Assembly: GCA_024409235.1 (NCBI GenBank)
Contig: JAKSUA010000007.1
Coordinates: forward strand, 1-64,000
From: Bacteroidales bacterium
GTDB lineage: Bacteria; Bacteroidota; Bacteroidia; Bacteroidales; UBA1715
DNA: 64,000 nucleotides
Direction of reading: 5' to 3'
Shown: one piece after another, positions 49,188 to 64,000 of the stretch
Layout of the letters: each line of letters opens with the position of its first letter
How positions within the stretch are numbered: the first letter of the stretch is position 1
The notes under the pieces: generated by a model
Databases searched by the model: none
Seen by the model: the letters and a program-made list of their open reading frames with translations, nothing else
Told to the model about the DNA's origin: nothing
Made by a program: the position numbers and the translations under genes

Positions 49188-50225
49188 ATGATAGATGTAC
49201 TTATAATCGGTGGCGGAATAGCAGGTATACAGGCTGCTTGTTCCTTACAAGATTTAGGATTGGAGACAGTTATTGTTGAAAAAGAAAAAACAATTGGAGG
49301 GCACCTGAATGATTGGGATACATTGTTTCCAACTTTTCGTTCAGCATCGGAAGTGATAGATTATTATACAGAAGAAACTCGAAAACGTGCATTGACAATT
49401 TATTTGAATACGAATGTCATTTCCATAAAAAAAGTGGATGAAGGCGTGTTCGAAGTACAGACATCACGTGATGTGTTGTTTAGAAGTAAATCTGTTGTGT
49501 TGGCGTCCGGTTATCAGTTGTTTAATGCTGAACGTAAGGAAGAATATGGTTATAAAATCTATGACAACGTATTAACTTCTGCAGATTTGGAAAAGAAATT
49601 CCGTCGGTTAAACGGACAGCCGTTCAAAACACCTACAGACAAAACTCCTAAACGCATTGGATTTATTCATTGTGTAGGTTCGAGAGATGAAAAATCTGGA
49701 AATCATTATTGCTCTAAACTTTGTTGTGTTACGGCGGTAAAACAGGCAATTCACATGAAACAGGTTTGTCCGGAAGCGGATGTTTTCTGTTGCTATATGG
49801 ATTTGCGTATGTACGGACCAGGCTTTGAGGAAATGTATCGCGAAGCTCAGGAAAAATATCATGTTCAGTTTATACGTGGACGTCTTTCAGAAGTTTCAGA
49901 GAATTCCGACGGTACGTTACAGTTGAAAGTGGAAGACACTTTGGCGGCCCGTCCTTGTAGAATACAGGCTGATATGTTAGTTCTTATGGTGGGAATGGAA
50001 GCATCTAAGAATACAGCTTTATTTAAGCAGTCATGTAATCTTGAATGTGCTTCGAATCGTTTTGTGAAACCGAACGATCACCATATTGGTTCAAATCAAA
50101 CGAATGTGCCTGGATTGTTTACTGCAGGAACGAGTATTGGACCAATGTCTGTTTTTGATACAGTAAATCATGCAAAATCTGTAGCTTTTGCAGTGAATGA
50201 ATACTTAAAGAATTCAGAATTATGA
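49188..50225 (+). CDS. HdrA-like FAD oxidoreductase
   Basis: A 345-residue flavoprotein. The N-terminus has the FAD-binding GGGIAGIQAACSL; the HdrA signature CVGSRDEKSG...YCSKLCCVTAVKQA is at about 163-190, and a C-terminal NVPGLFTAGTSIGPMSV loop closes the FAD site. It lacks the extra ferredoxin domains of methanogen HdrA (about 650 residues), so electrons must come from another donor. It begins right after the S23 remnant and overlaps the next gene by four bases (ATGA). Confidence 0.88.
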   Translation: MIDVLIIGGGIAGIQAACSLQDLGLETVIVEKEKTIGGHLNDWDTLFPTFRSASEVIDYYTEETRKRALTIYLNTNVISIKKVDEGVFEVQTSRDVLFRSKSVVLASGYQLFNAERKEEYGYKIYDNVLTSADLEKKFRRLNGQPFKTPTDKTPKRIGFIHCVGSRDEKSGNHYCSKLCCVTAVKQAIHMKQVCPEADVFCCYMDLRMYGPGFEEMYREAQEKYHVQFIRGRLSEVSENSDGTLQLKVEDTLAARPCRIQADMLVLMVGMEASKNTALFKQSCNLECASNRFVKPNDHHIGSNQTNVPGLFTAGTSIGPMSVFDTVNHAKSVAFAVNEYLKNSEL

Positions 50226-50569
50226 GAAATTTTGGATTTGCAACAACAAAATCGAGAACGGTAGATTATAGTAAAATCGATACTCGTCTTATTGGTTATA
50301 TTTTAGAAAATGAGCCAACATTCAATGCTTGTTTATCATGTGGCTCATGCACTGCAATTTGTAGTGCTGGTAATCTGACAAATTTCAATATCCGAAAGTT
50401 AAGTCTTTTAATCCGTTTAGGAGAATTGGAAAAAATTCACACGGAAATTGACAAATGTATGCTTTGTGGAAAATGTTTGTTGGAATGTCCTCGGGGAATC
50501 AATACTCGAAATGTGATAATGTTGATAAAAAAAGGTTTAACAATTTTTGATATAAAAGATCAGGAATAA
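50222..50569 (+). CDS. Second small HdrC-like ferredoxin subunit
   Basis: A 115-residue protein with two 4Fe-4S motifs, CLSCGSCTAICSAGN and CMLCGKCLLECPRG. It overlaps the hdrA-like gene by ATGA and the membrane subunit by TAATG, so the three are translated as a unit. Likely an electron wire between the flavin subunit and the membrane subunit. Confidence 0.85.
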   Translation: MRNFGFATTKSRTVDYSKIDTRLIGYILENEPTFNACLSCGSCTAICSAGNLTNFNIRKLSLLIRLGELEKIHTEIDKCMLCGKCLLECPRGINTRNVIMLIKKGLTIFDIKDQE

Positions 50570-52347
50570 TGGAGAACTATTTTGTATTGCCATTTACGGT
50601 AGGAACAGTTATTCTGTTTTCTATATTGCTTGTAAAATATGCTTTGTGGATTTCGAAACTTTCGAAAATCGATAAATTGCGTATTGTACAAAGTATATTT
50701 TCACGAAGAACACTTTCTGCTATAAAAGAGTGTTTTATGGAATGTTTGATTCACAGACGTATATTCAAACGAAATATTTTGTTGGGATATATGCACATGA
50801 GTCTTGCATTTGGATGGTTCTTGCTCATTGTTGTTGGGCATATAGAATGGGTCGTTTATTCAGGTACGTTTGTTACATATCCTTGGAATTCGATTTTCTT
50901 CCAATATTTTGTTCATGAAAGTTTTCCTGGTGAAAAAATTATGGCAAATATCATGGATTTCTTGTTGTTGTTTGTTTTGAGCGGTGTTTTGTTGGCATAT
51001 TTCAAACGTATAAACAGCAGAATGTATGGCATCAAGAAAACAACAAAACTGAAACCTCGTGATAGAATGACCATGTGTGCATTGTGGTTAATTTTTCCAT
51101 TGCGTTTATTGGCGGAAGGAGCAACAGCATCATTTTACCATAATGGCGGTTTTTTGACAAATAGTGTCGGCCGTTTTTTTGAATGGATACAAATTAGTCA
51201 TACAACTGAGGAAATTCTATGGTGGTCATATTCAATTAGTTTGGGTGTGTTCTTTGTTGGTTTACCATGGTCGCGTTATATGCATATATTCACCGAGGTT
51301 TTGTTGATAGGAATTCGCAGTACAGGTGTGAAACTGAAGAAAGAATTTAATTCGTATTCTCGAATTCAGGTATATTCCTGCTCTCGTTGTGGAATATGTA
51401 TCGATGTTTGTCAAATGCACATTTCGAACATTTCCAACAACCAGTCCGTTTATATTTTGAAAAATATCCGTGACCAGAACTTAACAGATAGAAAGTTATT
51501 CAACTGTTTGTTGTGTGGCCGTTGTGAACAGGCTTGTCCGGTAAATATTAACTTGAACGATTTACGCATATCTCAACGAATCCGTGCTACAAAAGAATAC
51601 AATTCCGACTATGCGTTTTTGAAAACTCTTCCTGTTGAGCAGCCAGTAGAGGATAAAACACCGGAAGTAATCTATTTTGCAGGATGTATGACGCACATGA
51701 CTCCTGGTATAAAAAAATCGGTGTTGAAGGTATTGGAAAAGGCAAATGTCAATTATCAGTTTATGGACAAAGATAAAGGTGCTTGCTGTGGACGTCCGTT
51801 GATGCTTGCCGGTCAATATGAAGCAGCCAAGAAATTGATTGCCCATAATCGTGAAAAAATACTTGAATCTGGAGCATCAACGTTGTTAGTTTCTTGTCCT
51901 ATTTGTTATAAAGTCTTTAAAGATGATTATGAATTGGGACAGATTTCAATAAAACATCATTCGGAGTACTTCTTGGAATTGGTGGAACAAGGAAAAATCA
52001 CATTAAAGAAATCCGACAAATCAATTGTATATCATGATCCATGCGAGTTGGGTAGAGGATGTGGTGTATATGAACCGCCAAGAAATCTGTTGAAGATGAC
52101 AGGAAATTTACAGAGCATACAGCAGGAAAAAGTAAACTCATTGTGTTGCAGCGGTTCGCTTGGAGATTTATGTTTGTCTATGTCTGACAGAAATACGATA
52201 AAAGCAGAAACATTAAAAGTATTATTGAACCAAAATCCAGATATGTTGGCGACAGCTTGTCCTTTATGCAAGAAAACTTTTGTAAAAGGTGTTGATATTC
52301 AGGTAAAAGACATTGCAGAAATAGTTGCTGAATCAATGGAAAATTAA
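50569..52347 (+). CDS. Membrane HdrE-HdrD-like fusion (haem-type membrane domain plus two CCG domains)
   Basis: A 592-residue protein. About residues 1-245 hold five hydrophobic helices with candidate haem/quinone-site His (GYMHMSLAFGWF, VVGHIEW, RYMHIFTE). Next come two 4Fe-4S motifs, CSRCGICIDVCQ and CLLCGRCEQACP (about 265-320). The last about 225 residues hold two complete CCG domains: GCMTHM...CCGRPL...CPICYKVF and DPCELGRGCG...CCSGSLGD...CPLCKKTF. This combines the parts of HdrE and HdrD in one chain. It should link a quinone or cytochrome pool to thiol/disulfide chemistry at the membrane. Product and substrate are not known. Confidence 0.85.
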   Translation: MENYFVLPFTVGTVILFSILLVKYALWISKLSKIDKLRIVQSIFSRRTLSAIKECFMECLIHRRIFKRNILLGYMHMSLAFGWFLLIVVGHIEWVVYSGTFVTYPWNSIFFQYFVHESFPGEKIMANIMDFLLLFVLSGVLLAYFKRINSRMYGIKKTTKLKPRDRMTMCALWLIFPLRLLAEGATASFYHNGGFLTNSVGRFFEWIQISHTTEEILWWSYSISLGVFFVGLPWSRYMHIFTEVLLIGIRSTGVKLKKEFNSYSRIQVYSCSRCGICIDVCQMHISNISNNQSVYILKNIRDQNLTDRKLFNCLLCGRCEQACPVNINLNDLRISQRIRATKEYNSDYAFLKTLPVEQPVEDKTPEVIYFAGCMTHMTPGIKKSVLKVLEKANVNYQFMDKDKGACCGRPLMLAGQYEAAKKLIAHNREKILESGASTLLVSCPICYKVFKDDYELGQISIKHHSEYFLELVEQGKITLKKSDKSIVYHDPCELGRGCGVYEPPRNLLKMTGNLQSIQQEKVNSLCCSGSLGDLCLSMSDRNTIKAETLKVLLNQNPDMLATACPLCKKTFVKGVDIQVKDIAEIVAESMEN

Positions 52348-56159: not shown

Positions 56160-59100
56160 ATGATGAAAAAAATATATCTATTGGGCTTGCTATGCACAAT
56201 TTTTGCTATAAATGTGTTTTCACAGGCATTAACGTACAATCCTTCTCTCTTTATAAAAACAGAAATAAATGTTGGAAATCCGGCATATCCGTTCCCTCAA
56301 TTCTTAGAGTACAAGGGGGGTGGAAAGTCTTTGGCGAAGTATAATGCAGAAGGTGTTACGCACGCGGATATGGAAAAAACGATGCGTGAGGCATACGAAA
56401 TTATGATGCACCGTTGTCGCTATATGGGTGGTACGCACTGTGGTGTGCCATACATTACATTTAACCATGAAAGTGTTCCGGGTAACTATGGAACATTCGT
56501 ATCCGAAGGTGATGGTTATGCATTGCTTGCAGCTGCAATTTTTGCAGATCAAAAGACATTCAATGGCTTGTACATGTGGATTCACGATAATCGTTTCAGT
56601 GGTGTGAAAAGATTTCAGGACGGCCGTGTGCTTCGTGCAACGGCGAATGATTATGCAGGTCCTTATTTGGCTGGATGGCAGTGTGATGAAACTACGACAA
56701 GTATGTCGCCTTCTCACTCGGCAACAGATGGTGACGTCGATATAGCGATGGCGATGCTGATTGCTTATAAACAATGGGGTGAGTGGATGAAGCACGATGG
56801 TGAGATTGTTAAAGATTATGCAGGAAATCCAATTTCATTAAAATACGAAACGCAACGTGTTGTAGGAGCTTTGGTTGACACGTTAGGACAATGGGATCCT
56901 GGAAGTGGAGCTTTGACGGGAGAACTATGTGGTGTTGTTGGTATTGACGGTTATGAAAAACGTGGAAACTCTTGGGGGGAATTAACTCGTTGGCGTTTTA
57001 CTGCAGAGGCTAATGCAATGTACCCTAATGTAAATGGACCATATAATGGAGGACCGAATCTATATGGAATATATGGAGGAAATTATATTGATTATGATGC
57101 TCCTTCGTACTTCGAGGAATTCTGGCGTTGGTTGAAAAATGGTGATGGAGTTGATGAAAACAATAAAGTGATGGCTCCGTGGGAAATCCATCAGTTTAAA
57201 CGTGCTGCGGCATCGGGTAACTGGCTGAACCAACAGGCGTATGAACAAGGTTATCAGGCGTCTATTGGTCAGGTTATGATGTCTGAGGATGGGAAACCAA
57301 CATTCTCTGTTTATGTGGGAGGTGAAGATTTCCGTTATCCATGGCGACATATGATGGATTATTTGTGGCATGGAAATGCAGATTATGATTGGGATCCAAA
57401 AACTCATCAGGTAATAGAAGGGAAAGTGAACAGATCTGAGTATGATATGGGGATGAGACATGCAGAACTGTTGAAAAATCCAACAAATGGTGGAAAACAA
57501 TTGTGTTCGAAAATGGGAGCATCTCCAGATCCTGGACAACCTTTATGGTTTGGTGTGTCTCAAATACCACAGCAATGGAACTTAGACGGTACAGTTGGGC
57601 AGGATTATCACACGGTATATTCTCCGGGTGCGGGTTCTCCAGCTGCTGTTATTTCAGGAGACTTGGATTTGTTGGCAGATATATATCGTCAGTGCGAATT
57701 GTTGTGGGATGGTAACAATACTGCTGCGAAGTTGGATCCTGAAGAAAGATATATCGGTAGCACTCCAAAATATTTCCATGGTTGGTTCCGTGTTCTTGGC
57801 TTATTAGTTTGTTCAGGAAATTTAGCTGCTCCTGAGGATATGAAACCGATTGCAAATATGAAAGTATATATGTCGGTAGATAAAACATACGCATACGAGG
57901 GCGATAAGGTTGGTTACACTGTTCAATATAGAAACTACGGAACTTTGGACGCCAAGGACGTAAAGATTCAAACTCCGCTTGATCCAGATTATACTTTTGT
58001 AAGTGCAACAAAAGGTGGTGTATATGATCCAGCAACGCATTCAATTACTTGGAATATAGGTACAGTTCCTGGTTTTAAAACAGGAGGGTTGGCTGCAACT
58101 CAGGATTCGGTTGCGTTTACGGTAAGAATAACAAGTTTGGAAAACTCGCGTGTATGCGAAACAAGTACAATTACAGGTTCAAATTTCGATGAATGGGTTA
58201 GTAACGAATATCCAAACCACGCAACATATACAATGGAACGCAACTGCGTAGATGTCTTGGCAAATCGTAGTTTGGTGTTGGAGAAAACGGCAAATAGAAC
58301 AGAATTGAATCCAAATGATGTTGTTACATTCACGGTTAATTTTGAAAATGTGTCGTCAGATGATGCATGGATGAATGGTGGGCGCGATAATGTTCGTTTG
58401 TCATATGGTAACTATTATATGCAGGGAAGTGCGTATCAATTTTATCATTTGTATCGTTTTTGGAATGATTCGTACGAGGCATATATAAATATGAGCAACT
58501 ATCGTTTGTCTTATTTTATGTATGACGCAGCTGCACAAGGTTTGTATGATGCAGCAAAAAATCCGACAGGATGGACATTTGTGGTGGATAACCAAAATGA
58601 CCTTGACAAATACGGATATAATCCAGAAACAGGACCGATTACTTTTGCTTACCAGAAAATTCCACAAGGAGAAGATGAATTTGGAAAATGGAATCAGCGT
58701 TTGATGATTCGTTTTGCCGATGTGTTGATGGCACCTTCTACTCATGTGTATGACAAATTGGATTCACAATATTTATTGCATAAAGGTGTTTGGGGACCAG
58801 GTTTTATTCGTGCTCGTTTGGCTTCGAATCCATATTCAGACTTGTCTACTCGTGTACAAGATGACTGGTCATTCTCTACGGATATTACGGCAAAAACTAT
58901 TGATGGTCAAGGTGAAACATTTACGTTGGTAACACCTTGTTGGGCAAATTACGATGATTTAGGTTACGAAATTGATAACTATTCTCGTCATACATGTAGT
59001 GCTCCAACATCTAAATTGAAAAATTTTGAAAGGGTTTTAGTTGAAGAATTCGATGGTTATACTTGGCGTCGTATTCAAGGTCGTGGACCGCTTCCTGGAA

Positions 59101-62100
59101 AAGAAGCTTATAATGTAACAATTGTTGATACAATACCTAAGGAATTGTCTTTCAAAGAATTTGTGACGAAAAAAGCTTTGGGGATAGAAGCAACATATAC
59201 GGCGGCTCCTGCAGGTGCTAATTACACAGGTATTGTAAAGTGGACAATCCCAGAAATGTTGGTAGGTGAGAGTGGAAAGCTTGTATATACTTGCGTGGCA
59301 AAAGATTTGGGCTGTCCAACAGTGGAAGATACATATTATATAAACGCTGCATGGATTTATTCCGACACGGATTCTCCAGATTCTTCTTCTGTGGAATTAA
59401 TGACAACATGTACAGATCTTCCTCCATATATTGAACCACAGACTTCGTTGTTTAAAACTGCTTCTCAGACAACGGCAACTGTTGGAGACGTGATTTCTTA
59501 TGAGGTAAAATATATAAATACAACAGGAACTATTGTGGATGAAGACTGTTCTTCGTCTGCAAACTGGATGGCTATGGGAGGAAAAACGCTTCCTAATCCA
59601 TCGGGAAGTAAATTCTCATTAAATACAAATGGTTCGAGTGCATATTTCTTTGGTCCGAAATATTCGTATGGTGAAAATGGTTCTGTGTATATTACATTTA
59701 GTGGATGTAATTCTACGACACAGGAATTGTATTTTGTTATGCGTTATGATAGTGGCATCCCTGGAACAGCATCATTTAAGGGCTTGGCTATGAAGTTGTT
59801 TATTAATAAGGACGGCAAGAATAATTTTGGATACGAATTGTATGATAATGGGACAATGGTTGCTCGAGAAGGAACATCTTGGCAGGATGCAATGCAATTT
59901 GCTGGAAGTAATACAAATCCAACATTCAAGTTCGTATTAAATGAAGATCATTTATATATGTATGTAAATGATGAAGAAAATGAGTGGACAAGTGTGATGA
60001 AAGATTGGAAAGGTCTTTCAAAAGGAGCAGGGTACTTTGGTATATATGTCAATAGTAATGGTAACGGAGCCACTGCCTTAGATAATTTCAAAACAGAATT
60101 GGATTATGCGTTTAATGTTACGTTGTATGATGAATTACCATCTGAGTTGACTGACATAAAAAATATTTCAGGTAACGGAAAACTTGCTTCAAATAAAATT
60201 ACCTGGCCTATGGTTGCAGGTCCAGTGAAACCAAATGAGGTAATAGCATATACATTTGATGCGACAGTAGATGAATGTAATAGTTTCATCAACAATTATG
60301 GATTGGCTGATGTGTATGGTCAGGAAACATTGAAAGTCGTAAATTCTGTGAAATGTGGCGCAACAATTTGTCCTGATGCTCCTGATGTTGTGTCTCCAAT
60401 TACATATTGTAAAGGTCAAACTGCTCCGTCATTAATTGCAGATGGAAAGAAATTAAAATGGTACGATGCTGATATGGAATTTCTTGCATCTGGAACCGGA
60501 CCTGTCCCATCAACGGAAAAAGTAGGCAGTTTTACATATTATGTTACTCAAACTGGTTCGTGTGAAAGTGATCCGTCGGAAATTGTGGTGGAAGTAATAG
60601 AAACAGAAAAACCAACAGTTGAAGACATAACATTATGTAAAAATGATATGAATGTTTCTGCATTGACAGCAGAAGGAGAGGATTTGAAATGGTATAATAG
60701 TGATGATGTTCAGTTGGATGCTGCACCAAAACCAGATGTCGCAGAAGAAGGTGATTTTTCTTTCTTTGTGACACAGACTGTGAACGAGTGTGAAAGTGAA
60801 AAGGCTGAAATCATTGTGACTGTAGGTGCTTTGGCAAAACCAACAGTAGAATCTCCTGTGAATTATTGTCAGGGATTGGAGGCTGAAGAATTGTCTGCAA
60901 CTGCAGATGGAGGTGTGTTGCAGTGGTATTCTGTTGCTATAAACGGTACAGCTTTAGCGTCAACTCCAGTGCCAAGTACGGAAAATGTAGGTTCTGTATC
61001 GTATTTTGTCTCACAAAAATCAGGAACTTGTGAAAGTGAACGTTCGGAAATTGTTGTCAATGTAAAATCTAATCCAGTAAGTTCAATTTCTGCAACTGCA
61101 GAATCTTATTGTGGGGATAATTCTCCTATAACATTGTCGATAGAACCGAAGGATAAAAACTTTGATATGTCAAGCGCTTCATATCAATGGTATATTGATG
61201 GAAGTAAGTCGGGTAGTGTGGAATCAATATCTGAAGCTCAAGCCGGAACATATTCTTGTGTTCTTTCGCTTGATGGCTGTTCTTATACTACGGAAGAAGT
61301 CACAATATCTCAATATGAAAATCCTACCTATACTATAACTGGTGCGGGAAGTTACTGCCCTGAATCGACAGAAAAAGAACCGGTTGTAATTACATTCACT
61401 TCTGGTGAAGCTCCGTTCTCTTTTACGGATGCGGTATTAGGTGAAGTCGTTTCAGAAACTAACGTTTATACAGTTGAGAATCCTAAGGGTGGAACATATA
61501 AAATATCTATTTTAAAGGATGCACATGAATGTTCTATGGTTGAGGTTGGCTCAAGTGTTACTGTTGAGGATTTAGAAACTCCAGATTTGACAATTTCATC
61601 AATTCCAGGAGTGTGCGCGGAAACAGAGTCGGTTGATATTAGTAAGTATGTTTCTGCTGGAAGGGAATCTGTTTCTTATTCAACAGACAAAGGAACTGTT
61701 AGTGCTGCTGGTATTCTAACAGGCTTGACAGCTGCTGGAGAATATAATGTATCCGTAACGGTTACAGGAAAAGTTGCTCCATATTGTACAAATACAAAAA
61801 TTGCTACAGTGACTGTATTCTCTTTACCTGAAATTGCATTTGAAGAAGAATTGTCAGTGTGTGCTGATGCTGATTTACAAATAAATCCAACTATTACAAC
61901 TGCTACGAGAAATTATTCTGTTGCATGGTCGGGAGATGCTGCTGAAAAATTAAATAGTAAAACGCTGATTCAACCAACGTTCAACGCTTCTGTCGAGAAT
62001 GAGGAAATATTTACATTGAATTTAACCGTTATAGATGAAAATAAATGTTCTTCTAAAGAGGCAACAACTGTAAAAGTTAATCCTGTTCCAACAGTTTCGT

Positions 62101-64000
62101 TGACAATGTCTGAAACAAGTTTTTGTGTTTCAGAATCAGAACCGCAGACAATAACAGCGAAGATTAGTCCAGAAGGAATAAAAGGAGATTATACTTGGGA
62201 GGCTGGAGATGCGGTAACTACTGCTAGTTCCGCAAAAATTACTCCAAGTTCTTGTCTGGTAGGAAAGAATGAAATAAAATATATGTTCGAAACAGAATCT
62301 GGTTGTGCTTCCGAATGGGCTGTACAGAACTTTACAGTGAAAGCATTGCCGGAAATTAGTCTTGCTCCAAGCAAAGCAGATATTTGTGTAAGTGGAGAAA
62401 ATAGTTCCGATGTAACAATGATTCCTTCTCAGTCTGTGGGAACATTTGAATATTCTATAAACAAAGGTACTATAGAAACAGATGGAACTTTTTCTGCATC
62501 AAACGGTGTAGGTGAGTATGAAATAACACTGACATATACAGGAACAAATTCTTGTCAGAATGTTGCAACAACAACGGTGACAGTACATAAATTGCCTCAG
62601 GTTTCGTTTGCAGAAACAAATCCTAAAAAAGCTTGTTACAACTCAACATTAGTAGAATTAACAGTGCAACCTTCAGTTGAATCAGCTGCTGCATATAGCT
62701 TTATAGGAACAGCGTCATCAACTACTTCAGATTTCAATCCTTCTGCAGCGGCAGTAGGGGAAAATACAATGACTTATATTTATACAGATGAAAATGGTTG
62801 TCAGAATTCTGCTTCTTGGATTATAAATGTGGAAAAAGTTGAGGCACCATCAATTGAGGCTCCAAATCCAAGAACTGTTACGGTGGAAGATGGAAATCTA
62901 TTGGATGTGACAACAATGAAAGCAGTACCAAGCGTCGTGACAGATAATTTGATTTGGCAAGATGCGTCTAGAATAAAGTTGGCTGATGGAGCAGAATATA
63001 CAAGTCCGGCAACAACGGAAGGTGTTTATCAGTTATTTGTGAAAGAATATAGAAATATAGAAGGCAATGATTGTTACAGCGATAGCACTCTTGCTACATT
63101 GGTTTTGTCTGACTGTAATGCAAAATCACCTATAGTTACAAATGAGAATGTTTGTGTTGGGGCAGGTGAAAATAATGAAGTAACAGTTACTTTAAATGCA
63201 AATTATGCAGGAGAATCTACGGGTAGAAAAATCTCTTGGTTCGCATCATCTGATAATATAGAAAGTCAAACTCCAATGGTGGCAGGAGACGATGTAACAA
63301 CATGGGAAACTGTGGTAAATACAGAACAAGCGGATGTGTTCACATTTTATGTTGCTGAGTATTCTTCGGATAAGGATTGTTGGTCTTTCCCAACGCCGAT
63401 AAGTGTTATAGTTAAACCGCTTCCAGAAATAGCAATAGAAGAGTTTACAAATAATGGAATCTTATGTTATTTTGAAGGTAGTTACTCTGCAGTGGGAACA
63501 ATTAATGGTGTTCGTTCTTCTGCGGGAACATGGTCGATAAAGGATGATGCTCTAGAAATTGGTGCAAATACAGGAGTAATTAGTACAAAATCGGCAGGAA
63601 AAACTGATGGAAATTATACGGCAGTATATACATACACGGATGGATTCGGATGTACTGGTTCTGGCGAAAAAGACTTTTCTGTAGAATATCCAGAAATACC
63701 AACATCTGACGGTTATCTTGGAATTGTAGCAGATCCAAAGCAAGTGTCAATTTCGGTGAACAAAACTTCTTTGGAAAAAGATGACGCTACAGTTCGTTGG
63801 TATGGAAGTGAGACTTCTACAACGGCTTCAGCAACAGGAAATAGCTGGAGTCCTGACTTTGATCCTTCATTTGTTCATACTGCAACATATTATTTGACTC
63901 AGGAAGTAAATGGTTGTGAGAGTGAAAAAGGAACTTCTTTGGTGAAAATTGTGGAATGTCCATTTGAAAAACCTGAACCTACAAAAGAGACTGTTTCTCA
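56160..64000 (+). CDS. Secreted giant glycoside hydrolase family 8 protein, incomplete at window end
   Basis: Open from ATG 56160 to the window end (over 2,610 codons), with no stop. Signal peptide about 1-23 (ends NVFSQA). The GH8 domain (about 70-560) has the likely acid Glu116 in VSEGDGYALLAAAIF and Asp190/Asp192 in ATDGDVDIAMAM, typical of family 8 endoglucanases, chitosanases and xylanases. Then come DUF11 domains (near 567, 702 and 1096). The last has a jelly-roll/concanavalin-like insert (about 1125-1310). From about 1400 on there are many Ig-like repeats with C-x-x-E-x-x-A/S endings (YYVTQTGSCESDPSEI and relatives). A type IX sorting domain is expected beyond the window. The substrate is a beta-glycan; which one is not clear. 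Confidence 0.85.
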   Translation, partial: MMKKIYLLGLLCTIFAINVFSQALTYNPSLFIKTEINVGNPAYPFPQFLEYKGGGKSLAKYNAEGVTHADMEKTMREAYEIMMHRCRYMGGTHCGVPYITFNHESVPGNYGTFVSEGDGYALLAAAIFADQKTFNGLYMWIHDNRFSGVKRFQDGRVLRATANDYAGPYLAGWQCDETTTSMSPSHSATDGDVDIAMAMLIAYKQWGEWMKHDGEIVKDYAGNPISLKYETQRVVGALVDTLGQWDPGSGALTGELCGVVGIDGYEKRGNSWGELTRWRFTAEANAMYPNVNGPYNGGPNLYGIYGGNYIDYDAPSYFEEFWRWLKNGDGVDENNKVMAPWEIHQFKRAAASGNWLNQQAYEQGYQASIGQVMMSEDGKPTFSVYVGGEDFRYPWRHMMDYLWHGNADYDWDPKTHQVIEGKVNRSEYDMGMRHAELLKNPTNGGKQLCSKMGASPDPGQPLWFGVSQIPQQWNLDGTVGQDYHTVYSPGAGSPAAVISGDLDLLADIYRQCELLWDGNNTAAKLDPEERYIGSTPKYFHGWFRVLGLLVCSGNLAAPEDMKPIANMKVYMSVDKTYAYEGDKVGYTVQYRNYGTLDAKDVKIQTPLDPDYTFVSATKGGVYDPATHSITWNIGTVPGFKTGGLAATQDSVAFTVRITSLENSRVCETSTITGSNFDEWVSNEYPNHATYTMERNCVDVLANRSLVLEKTANRTELNPNDVVTFTVNFENVSSDDAWMNGGRDNVRLSYGNYYMQGSAYQFYHLYRFWNDSYEAYINMSNYRLSYFMYDAAAQGLYDAAKNPTGWTFVVDNQNDLDKYGYNPETGPITFAYQKIPQGEDEFGKWNQRLMIRFADVLMAPSTHVYDKLDSQYLLHKGVWGPGFIRARLASNPYSDLSTRVQDDWSFSTDITAKTIDGQGETFTLVTPCWANYDDLGYEIDNYSRHTCSAPTSKLKNFERVLVEEFDGYTWRRIQGRGPLPGKEAYNVTIVDTIPKELSFKEFVTKKALGIEATYTAAPAGANYTGIVKWTIPEMLVGESGKLVYTCVAKDLGCPTVEDTYYINAAWIYSDTDSPDSSSVELMTTCTDLPPYIEPQTSLFKTASQTTATVGDVISYEVKYINTTGTIVDEDCSSSANWMAMGGKTLPNPSGSKFSLNTNGSSAYFFGPKYSYGENGSVYITFSGCNSTTQELYFVMRYDSGIPGTASFKGLAMKLFINKDGKNNFGYELYDNGTMVAREGTSWQDAMQFAGSNTNPTFKFVLNEDHLYMYVNDEENEWTSVMKDWKGLSKGAGYFGIYVNSNGNGATALDNFKTELDYAFNVTLYDELPSELTDIKNISGNGKLASNKITWPMVAGPVKPNEVIAYTFDATVDECNSFINNYGLADVYGQETLKVVNSVKCGATICPDAPDVVSPITYCKGQTAPSLIADGKKLKWYDADMEFLASGTGPVPSTEKVGSFTYYVTQTGSCESDPSEIVVEVIETEKPTVEDITLCKNDMNVSALTAEGEDLKWYNSDDVQLDAAPKPDVAEEGDFSFFVTQTVNECESEKAEIIVTVGALAKPTVESPVNYCQGLEAEELSATADGGVLQWYSVAINGTALASTPVPSTENVGSVSYFVSQKSGTCESERSEIVVNVKSNPVSSISATAESYCGDNSPITLSIEPKDKNFDMSSASYQWYIDGSKSGSVESISEAQAGTYSCVLSLDGCSYTTEEVTISQYENPTYTITGAGSYCPESTEKEPVVITFTSGEAPFSFTDAVLGEVVSETNVYTVENPKGGTYKISILKDAHECSMVEVGSSVTVEDLETPDLTISSIPGVCAETESVDISKYVSAGRESVSYSTDKGTVSAAGILTGLTAAGEYNVSVTVTGKVAPYCTNTKIATVTVFSLPEIAFEEELSVCADADLQINPTITTATRNYSVAWSGDAAEKLNSKTLIQPTFNASVENEEIFTLNLTVIDENKCSSKEATTVKVNPVPTVSLTMSETSFCVSESEPQTITAKISPEGIKGDYTWEAGDAVTTASSAKITPSSCLVGKNEIKYMFETESGCASEWAVQNFTVKALPEISLAPSKADICVSGENSSDVTMIPSQSVGTFEYSINKGTIETDGTFSASNGVGEYEITLTYTGTNSCQNVATTTVTVHKLPQVSFAETNPKKACYNSTLVELTVQPSVESAAAYSFIGTASSTTSDFNPSAAAVGENTMTYIYTDENGCQNSASWIINVEKVEAPSIEAPNPRTVTVEDGNLLDVTTMKAVPSVVTDNLIWQDASRIKLADGAEYTSPATTEGVYQLFVKEYRNIEGNDCYSDSTLATLVLSDCNAKSPIVTNENVCVGAGENNEVTVTLNANYAGESTGRKISWFASSDNIESQTPMVAGDDVTTWETVVNTEQADVFTFYVAEYSSDKDCWSFPTPISVIVKPLPEIAIEEFTNNGILCYFEGSYSAVGTINGVRSSAGTWSIKDDALEIGANTGVISTKSAGKTDGNYTAVYTYTDGFGCTGSGEKDFSVEYPEIPTSDGYLGIVADPKQVSISVNKTSLEKDDATVRWYGSETSTTASATGNSWSPDFDPSFVHTATYYLTQEVNGCESEKGTSLVKIVECPFEKPEPTKETVS

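Follow-up and report, generated by a model that had tools for sequence, protein, structure and literature searches.

A giant family 8 glycoside hydrolase protein of a Bacteroidales bacterium with a predicted CBM3-like domain nested in a DUF11 module

The giant gene and its genomic setting

The window, a stretch of 64,000 nucleotides from contig JAKSUA010000007.1 of the Bacteroidales assembly GCA_024409235.1, ends inside a gene for a giant protein headed by a glycoside hydrolase family 8 (GH8) domain (Table 1). Read on the assembly past the window, the full ORF (L009:2161-13569, contig G000:C64) encodes 3,802 amino acids, with a computed mass of 417 kDa and a pI of 4.5. The original prediction of a GH8 head on a protein of more than 2,600 residues with DUF11 and Ig modules is real, and the protein is larger than proposed. 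That prediction had named a frameshift between the GH8 domain and the repeats as the finding that would undo it; all 3,802 codons form one unbroken frame in the assembly sequence, with no internal stop or frameshift.

From N- to C-terminus, the protein consists of the GH8 domain, three DUF11 modules, an Ig-like stalk of ~2,300 residues and a C-terminus resembling T9SS type B sorting domains. Pfam gave a partial Glyco_hydro_8 match of 35 bits over residues 113-208 (cut-off 24), a DUF11 match of 65 bits and Ig_7 matches of 133 bits in 6 stretches. The N-terminal hydrophobic stretch is probably a signal peptide. Sequence beyond the window had been proposed as the place to look for a sorting domain, and the type-B-like C-terminus was found there, although its scores of 24.1 and 30.4 bits against TIGR04131 (T9SS type B) are both under the curated cut-off of 35. 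The genome encodes 17 type-B-like sorting domains, 10 of them under the cut-off including that of the window gene (30.4 bits), as well as eight PorP/SprF genes. Five other giants have the stalk (31-35%) and C-terminus (71-76%) of the window protein but not its head, so one type of stalk bears a range of exchangeable heads. These giants are located at L139, L140, L141 and L142 (G000:C1, C5, C65 and C28), and one of their heads is RCC1-like.

Table 1. Features of the giant GH8 gene in the window
Feature	Position	Strand	Basis
Giant GH8 protein gene, window part	56160..63998	+	2,613 of 3,802 codons; open at window end
N-terminal hydrophobic stretch, residues 1-21	56160..56222	+	sequence; AlphaFold helix 2-19
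GH8 (alpha/alpha)6 domain, residues 32-560	56253..57839	+	Pfam, predicted model, fold match
Glu116, general acid position	56505..56507	+	Glu in 89/89 rows
DGDVD motif, Asp190/192/194	56727..56741	+	every Asp in 89/89 rows
Glu389 at CelA Asp278 position (GH8a general base)	57324..57326	+	row alignment, CelA alignment
DUF11 module 1, residues ~568-690	57861..58229	+	Pfam; Z 13.4 to CLIPPER domain of fibrillar adhesin
DUF11 module 2, residues ~705-1090, split by nested domain 1	58272..59429	+	model, Pfam pieces
Nested domain 1, CBM3-like (predicted), residues ~737-978	58368..59093	+	fold match to 2xbt; hhalign
DDWS, residues 901-904, on CBM3 NDYS calcium motif	58860..58871	+	hhalign alignment (DDWSF on NDYSF)
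EEFDGYTWRR, end motif of nested domain 1	59043..59072	+	conserved in relatives
DUF11 module 3, residues ~1095-1400, split by nested domain 2	59442..60359	+	model, Pfam
Nested domain 2, ConA-like lectin fold, residues ~1122-1316	59523..60107	+	fold match
Ig-like stalk, first part, residues 1401-2613	60360..63998	+	Ig_7 matches; stalk runs to ~3690 past window

The 2.62 Mb genome (66 contigs) has eight PF01270 places, five of them in ORFs of more than 2,600 amino acids; giant size is not unique to the window gene. A ninth GH8-like gene (L014:9743-11707) is visible by alignment only. At L014:6553-14903 (G000:C23), three related GH8 genes lie side by side and carry type A sorting domains; the middle one is outside the PF01270 places, and protein scans of the first two gave no PF01270 match, though the genome search matched the first. 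Another giant of 2,716 amino acids (L013:3210-11357, G000:C5) combines a polysaccharide deacetylase (CE4), GH8, CBM35 and GH26.

Downstream of the giant gene, ORFs at L009:13639-19999 resemble, by eye, genes of glycogen/alpha-glucan metabolism. Any of five neighbor genes was found nearby in only 3 of the best 80 of 135 relatives' loci (L045, L052 and L055; E 1e-20). The flanks checked were at most 10 kb, many ended at contig ends, and what lies downstream of giant copies was seldom in view, so the context is uninformative about a glycogen-cluster link rather than evidence against one. Elsewhere in the window, three adjacent ORFs (49188-52347) resemble, by eye, heterodisulfide-reductase-type subunits.

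The GH8 domain and its active site

Structure prediction, recommended with the original prediction, confirmed the GH8 fold. AlphaFold modeled residues 1-561 with a pLDDT of 91.2, and a structure aligner run on this model showed that the partial Pfam match corresponds to a full GH8 fold, aligning with substrate-bound CelA (1kwf) at Z 35.7 and rmsd 2.5 over 351 residues. The beta-1,3-1,4-glucanase scored Z 34.9, chitosanases ~33, xylanases at most 29.4 and BcsZ ~26, where values within 1 of each other count as ties. A GH8 profile built from 61 rows matches known GH8 structures, and by sequence the domain taken singly came closest to a chitosanase (E 6e-7). By fold, profile, acid Glu and Asp motif, the domain belongs to glycoside hydrolase family 8.

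Alignment of the catalytic Glu and Asp residues with those of active GH8 enzymes had been singled out as decisive. Glu116 and Asp190/192/194 do align and are invariant, as is Tyr312 (89 of 89 aligned rows), whereas the general base does not: the position of CelA Asp278 holds Glu389 here, and across the 89 rows it is Glu in 84, Gly in 4 and Thr in 1. Two pairs of identical sequences (L114/L031 and L115/L028) are included in the 89 rows; alignment A4 comprises 60 of the 80 loci. In six ordinary GH8 proteins encoded by the same genome this residue is Asp, a comparison that leaves out L013 because the slice used lacked its GH8 domain. One GH8 study takes Asp at the CelA Asp278 position, acting as proton acceptor, as the mark of GH8a, and notes that the place of the acceptor differs within the family (PMC5407803). 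Because it carries Glu389 and not Asp, the window protein is not filed as GH8a. Glu389 would then be a substituted general base. The refuting finding named with the original prediction is present in part, and the Asp-to-Glu change weakens the case for activity without making it void.

A type II paralogue of 3,959 amino acids in the same genome (L016:1981-13857, G000:C3) keeps the acid and the CBM3-like motifs described below, but has GGRFR for GEDFR at the base site. The four type II copies read from this genus (L032-L035; 7 genomes of the genus in the set) all have Gly at the base position, and the GGRFR-type site also occurs in L033-L035; retention of the CBM3-like motifs was shown for the own-genome paralogue. 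Judged from these residues, type II paralogues with Gly may be inactive, possibly dead enzymes kept as adhesins. The Thr occurs in a Fibrobacter MAG (L105), where Glu389 and the WRR end motif (see below) are both gone.

Two domains nested in DUF11 modules

A model of the 870-residue middle region (pLDDT 87.1) places two domains within DUF11 modules. The nesting of a jelly-roll domain in a DUF11 repeat was thus predicted correctly, but there are two such domains (residues ~737-978 and ~1122-1316) and not one. For the 870-residue model, Foldseek listed integrin and multi-Ig chains at TM ~0.1, and its first 50 matches included no CBM3. A second aligner, run afterwards on the same model, matched nested domain 1 to the CBM3 structure 2xbt (Z 15.4, rmsd 2.4, 157 residues, 16% identity). 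Sixteen of the 50 matches listed fell on nested domain 1 alone, every one a CBM3 chain, and in the predicted model the CBM3 fold is present over its whole length. Nested domain 2 aligned at Z 13-14.7 with the lectin domain of GALC (galactocerebrosidase), lichenases, legume lectins and CBM66, and HMMER also picked up legume lectins faintly (best E 0.04), in agreement with a ConA-like fold.

Sequence comparison gave a fainter picture of nested domain 1. Pfam CBM_3 (PF00942) matched 0 of 57 members, and an HMMER search of the PDB with the domain gave no match at E 10. When hhalign was run against a set of 18 CBM3 sequences, of which three came from the PDB and 15 from six Bacteroidota genomes (some mutual near copies), the domain scored 32.3 in local mode, with P 3e-4, a probability of 40% and 122 collinear columns, and reached a probability of 60% in global mode; with three CBM3 sequences alone there was no signal (P 0.02 and 0.05). 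Reversed alignments, the three DUF11 modules and the ConA domain scored at most 19.6, and 40 column-shuffled CBM3 alignments at most 23.4, so that the weak sequence signal to CBM3 exceeds every control. Since no CBM_3 profile match was found, we named the domain CBM3-like and did not file it in CBM3; its CBM3-like fold is a prediction from the model. CBM_3 (PF00942) is itself absent from this genome; among the 392 Bacteroidota sampled, 7 have it, 6 of them with scores above the cut-off.

Residues at two functional sites of CBM3 were compared. The planar strip of CBM3a includes Trp118; this Trp is not conserved, and those members that were read have Tyr, Asn or Ser in the aligned stretch. At the place aligned with the calcium motif, Asp902 occurs in 57 of 57 rows and Asp901 in 52 of 57, counts that represent long versions only because of a length filter (alignments A5 and A6 cover 56 of 80 loci; 61 passed the filter and five near copies were dropped). 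These residues align with the Asn-Asp of CBM3 and are candidate metal ligands. The excerpt available for the Cel9I CBM3c gives Asn576 and Asp577 as calcium ligands (PMC4579020), which we take as the Asn-Asp of NDYS.

The middle region (residues 561-1,430) travels with this GH8 domain: in 21 genomes searched with an 836-position profile, strong matches were confined to frames with the same GH8 domain and, at G008:C86, to a frame adjoining such a frame in what looks like one split gene. The remaining matches are two weak ones in a single genome. Among the best 80 of 135 relatives, the end motif E[EQ]x[DE]GxxWRR is present in 74 of the 75 with at least 420 residues past GH8, the other five loci being too short to count. 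The same set contains ten complete ORFs of 992-1,158 amino acids. One of these is probably a split gene (L053), and L105 is without the end motif and Glu389. The other eight stop ~110-215 residues past the end motif, so the minimal unit looks like GH8-DUF11-DUF11[CBM3-like], with the ConA domain and stalk apparently optional.

A broader reading, which we raise only tentatively, is that GH8 and the nested CBM3-like domain are a fixed catalytic unit in two phyla of contact-dependent fibre degraders, with a hidden cellulose-binding module joined to a new Glu-base GH8 subfamily in the manner of GH9-CBM3c. In the literature searched, with subscription journals largely out of reach, we came across no mention of a CBM3-like domain for the giant GH8 proteins.

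Distribution, proposed role and known systems

At E 1e-10, the window GH8 domain matched 13 of 60 genomes, its own included, all within its own family (13 of 14 members); the single family member without a match is 79% complete. A profile of this domain run across a phylum sample matched 1 of 392 Bacteroidota, the genome itself. Carriers among the best 80 of 135 relatives are Paludibacteraceae, Sporocytophaga, Cytophaga aurantiaca, other Cytophagaceae, Aquimarina (one being Aquimarina agarivorans), MAGs labelled Fibrobacter and Chitinispirillales (Fibrobacterota) and a few others, the nearest named relatives being Paludibacteraceae and Bacteroidales MAGs from rumen and hindgut. The family of Cytophaga has 11 carriers among 19 genomes, and that of one Fibrobacterota carrier has 19 among 24. 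A phage origin was rejected, as 33 pattern matches in viral contigs included none encoding a relative.

One genome (G465), which we take to be C. hutchinsonii, has a tandem pair of giant GH8 genes next to two other large ORFs. These two ORFs (G465:C1:3926480-3941260, L135/L136) have a C-terminal sequence in common with one giant of the pair. The window head is 48% identical over 1,433 amino acids to one tandem giant and 33% to its neighbor, and the own-genome type II paralogue is 41% identical to the other giant of the pair. In a tree made by a quick method (20 of 89 rows dropped, two C. hutchinsonii and five ordinary GH8 rows added), type I (99) and type II (98) form separate clades. Each mixes Cytophagaceae with Paludibacteraceae, suggesting that the type I/II duplication is old. 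The tandem giants are inferred to be CHU_3441 and CHU_3440, and their gene order fits the CHU_3437-3441 cluster as given in the accessible part of PMC6247017. By closer identity and shared clade, the window protein is the orthologue of the presumed CHU_3441.

The giant GH8 surface protein is a known but uncharacterised kind, and its function must be inferred. We consider it somewhat probable that it is a T9SS-delivered, surface-displayed beta-glucan hydrolase acting on plant-wall glucan. The N-terminal 1,400 residues would form the working head, made up of an inverting GH8 domain, with Glu116 as acid and Glu389 as proposed base, and of CBM3-like and ConA-like lectin domains each held within a DUF11 module; both nested domains may bind glycan. 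The type-B-like domain would route the giant through the T9SS, and the stalk of ~2,300 residues would keep the head clear of the cell's outer membrane. The substrate bound and cleaved by the head would be the beta-1,4-linked glucan, either cellulose or mixed-linkage glucan, of the plant fibres that carry the attached cell.

Several results argue for this hydrolase. Its GH8 fold is nearest to CelA and the beta-1,3-1,4-glucanase, with an invariant acid and Asp motif and Glu389 nearly so, and the CBM3-like domain with its end motif is kept even in versions of ~1,000-1,160 amino acids. Fibre-degrading lineages predominate among carriers; the eight PorP/SprF genes and the five giants with the same stalk and C-terminus are consistent with the secretion route. 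GH9 is present at three places in this genome and in 14 of 14 genomes of its family compared to 7 of 46 genomes from other families of the order, a difference confounded by descent. The early concept of a fibre-like enzyme on the cell surface, its tip cutting glycans, fits the frame, GH8 fold and acid, nested domains, stalk and C-terminus, and is weakened by the altered general base.

Published data, each from the accessible portion of its source, point both ways. C. hutchinsonii has six GH8 proteins, all found in its proteome, with the role of the large ones not known; on filter paper CHU_3440 was seen early, which favors the hydrolase, while CHU_3441 was the sole GH8 protein missed early and was seen late, and most GH8 proteins of S. 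myxococcoides went undetected (PMC6247017). Deletion of chu_1075, another giant GH8 gene, or of chu_3437 did not impair cellulose degradation (PMC5891637). Cockroach Paludibacteraceae are proposed to profit from cellobiose freed by Fibrobacterota, which counts against a primary cellulolytic role for them (PMC12871809, preprint). Also against the hydrolase are a base unlike that of active GH8a enzymes, Gly in the type II copies of the genus, the lack of a Pfam or HMMER CBM3 match, the local hhalign probability of 40%, the lack of conservation of the planar Trp, the C-terminal score under the cut-off and the Aquimarina agarivorans carrier.

The altered base gives some weight to a rather unlikely alternative, a fibre adhesin in which a largely or wholly inactive GH8 domain is a binding tip and the CBM3-like and lectin-like domains provide the grip. 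The Gly-bearing type II copies, with CBM3-like motifs kept in the own-genome one, the very long Ig stalk and the resemblance of DUF11 module 1 to a fibrillar-adhesin CLIPPER domain would all suit such a protein. An unused site would not be expected to keep Glu116 and Asp190/192/194 in every row and Glu389 in 84 of 89, however, and the base position still holds a carboxylate.

We regard it as improbable that the protein is a GH8 enzyme with a repurposed CBM3-like domain whose target is a different polymer of plant walls or algae, be it xylan, chitosan or solely mixed-linkage glucan. GH8 includes xylanases, lichenases and chitosanases, and the chitosanase sequence match, the Aquimarina carriers and the unconserved planar Trp are in keeping with this, but the structural ranking favors CelA and the beta-1,3-1,4-glucanase, albeit with ties, and the cellulose specialists Cytophaga and Sporocytophaga are among the carriers. 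The own exopolysaccharide, suggested as substrate by the original prediction, is very improbable and was rejected on a BcsB search that found none in this genome while E. coli and B. subtilis controls were positive: BcsZ is a GH8 enzyme and polysaccharide-biosynthesis-like ORFs lie on the same contig past the window (L010, by eye), but BcsZ is among the weaker fold matches, the neighbor genes recur at only 3 of 80 loci (with the downstream side often out of reach), the genome has GH9 and the CE4-GH8-CBM35-GH26 giant, and carriers are largely fibre-degrading.

Cytophaga and Fibrobacter open crystalline cellulose with neither free cellulases nor cellulosomes, and how they do so is a puzzle. According to the available excerpts, the annotated C. 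hutchinsonii endoglucanases all have no recognisable CBMs (PMC12016534), and 0 of 31 cellulases of F. succinogenes have a CBM of families 1, 2 or 3 (PMC3079729). What is new here is the prediction of a CBM3-like domain nested in DUF11, the constancy with which it accompanies GH8, and the replacement of Asp by Glu at the base position. If a CBM3-like domain is indeed hidden in DUF11 and fixed to GH8 in both phyla, it would offer a concrete domain with invariant residues for testing, with the orthologues CHU_3441 and CHU_3440 as a handle in a laboratory species, and may throw light on the way certain bacteria that feed on plant fibre hold on to it.

Among known systems, CHU_3441 (in tandem with CHU_3440) has the same GH8 head, 840-residue DUF11 region, Glu at the base position and end motif; it differs in length (2,807 amino acids compared to 3,802), stalk and C-terminus, and the C. 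hutchinsonii giants are in tandem while those of this genome occupy separate loci. CHU_1075, as far as its published description is available, likewise has a giant T9SS-type GH8 architecture (2,690 amino acids, GH8, Ig folds and T9SS CTD) with a GH8 domain 32% identical to CelA (PMC6247017); the likeness to the window protein is by description only. HycP of Clostridium cellulolyticum (~250 kDa) resembles the window protein in joining one CBM3 to a stalk of Ig-like HYR repeats, but is from a Gram-positive, is not T9SS-dependent and, in the accessible text, had no detected hydrolytic activity or adherence role (PMC3723904). CelA of Clostridium thermocellum, a GH8a endoglucanase, has the GH8 fold, acid Glu and Asp motif in common with the window protein, but a core of ~360 residues with an Asp base, compared to ~530 residues with Glu. 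By analogy, a parallel for the pairing is GH9-CBM3c, as in Cel9I, where the available excerpt describes a catalytic domain fixed to a CBM3-type domain without the usual binding strip (PMC4579020); there the enzyme is GH9 and its CBM3c is not nested, whereas the window protein couples GH8 to a CBM3-like domain predicted to be nested in DUF11.
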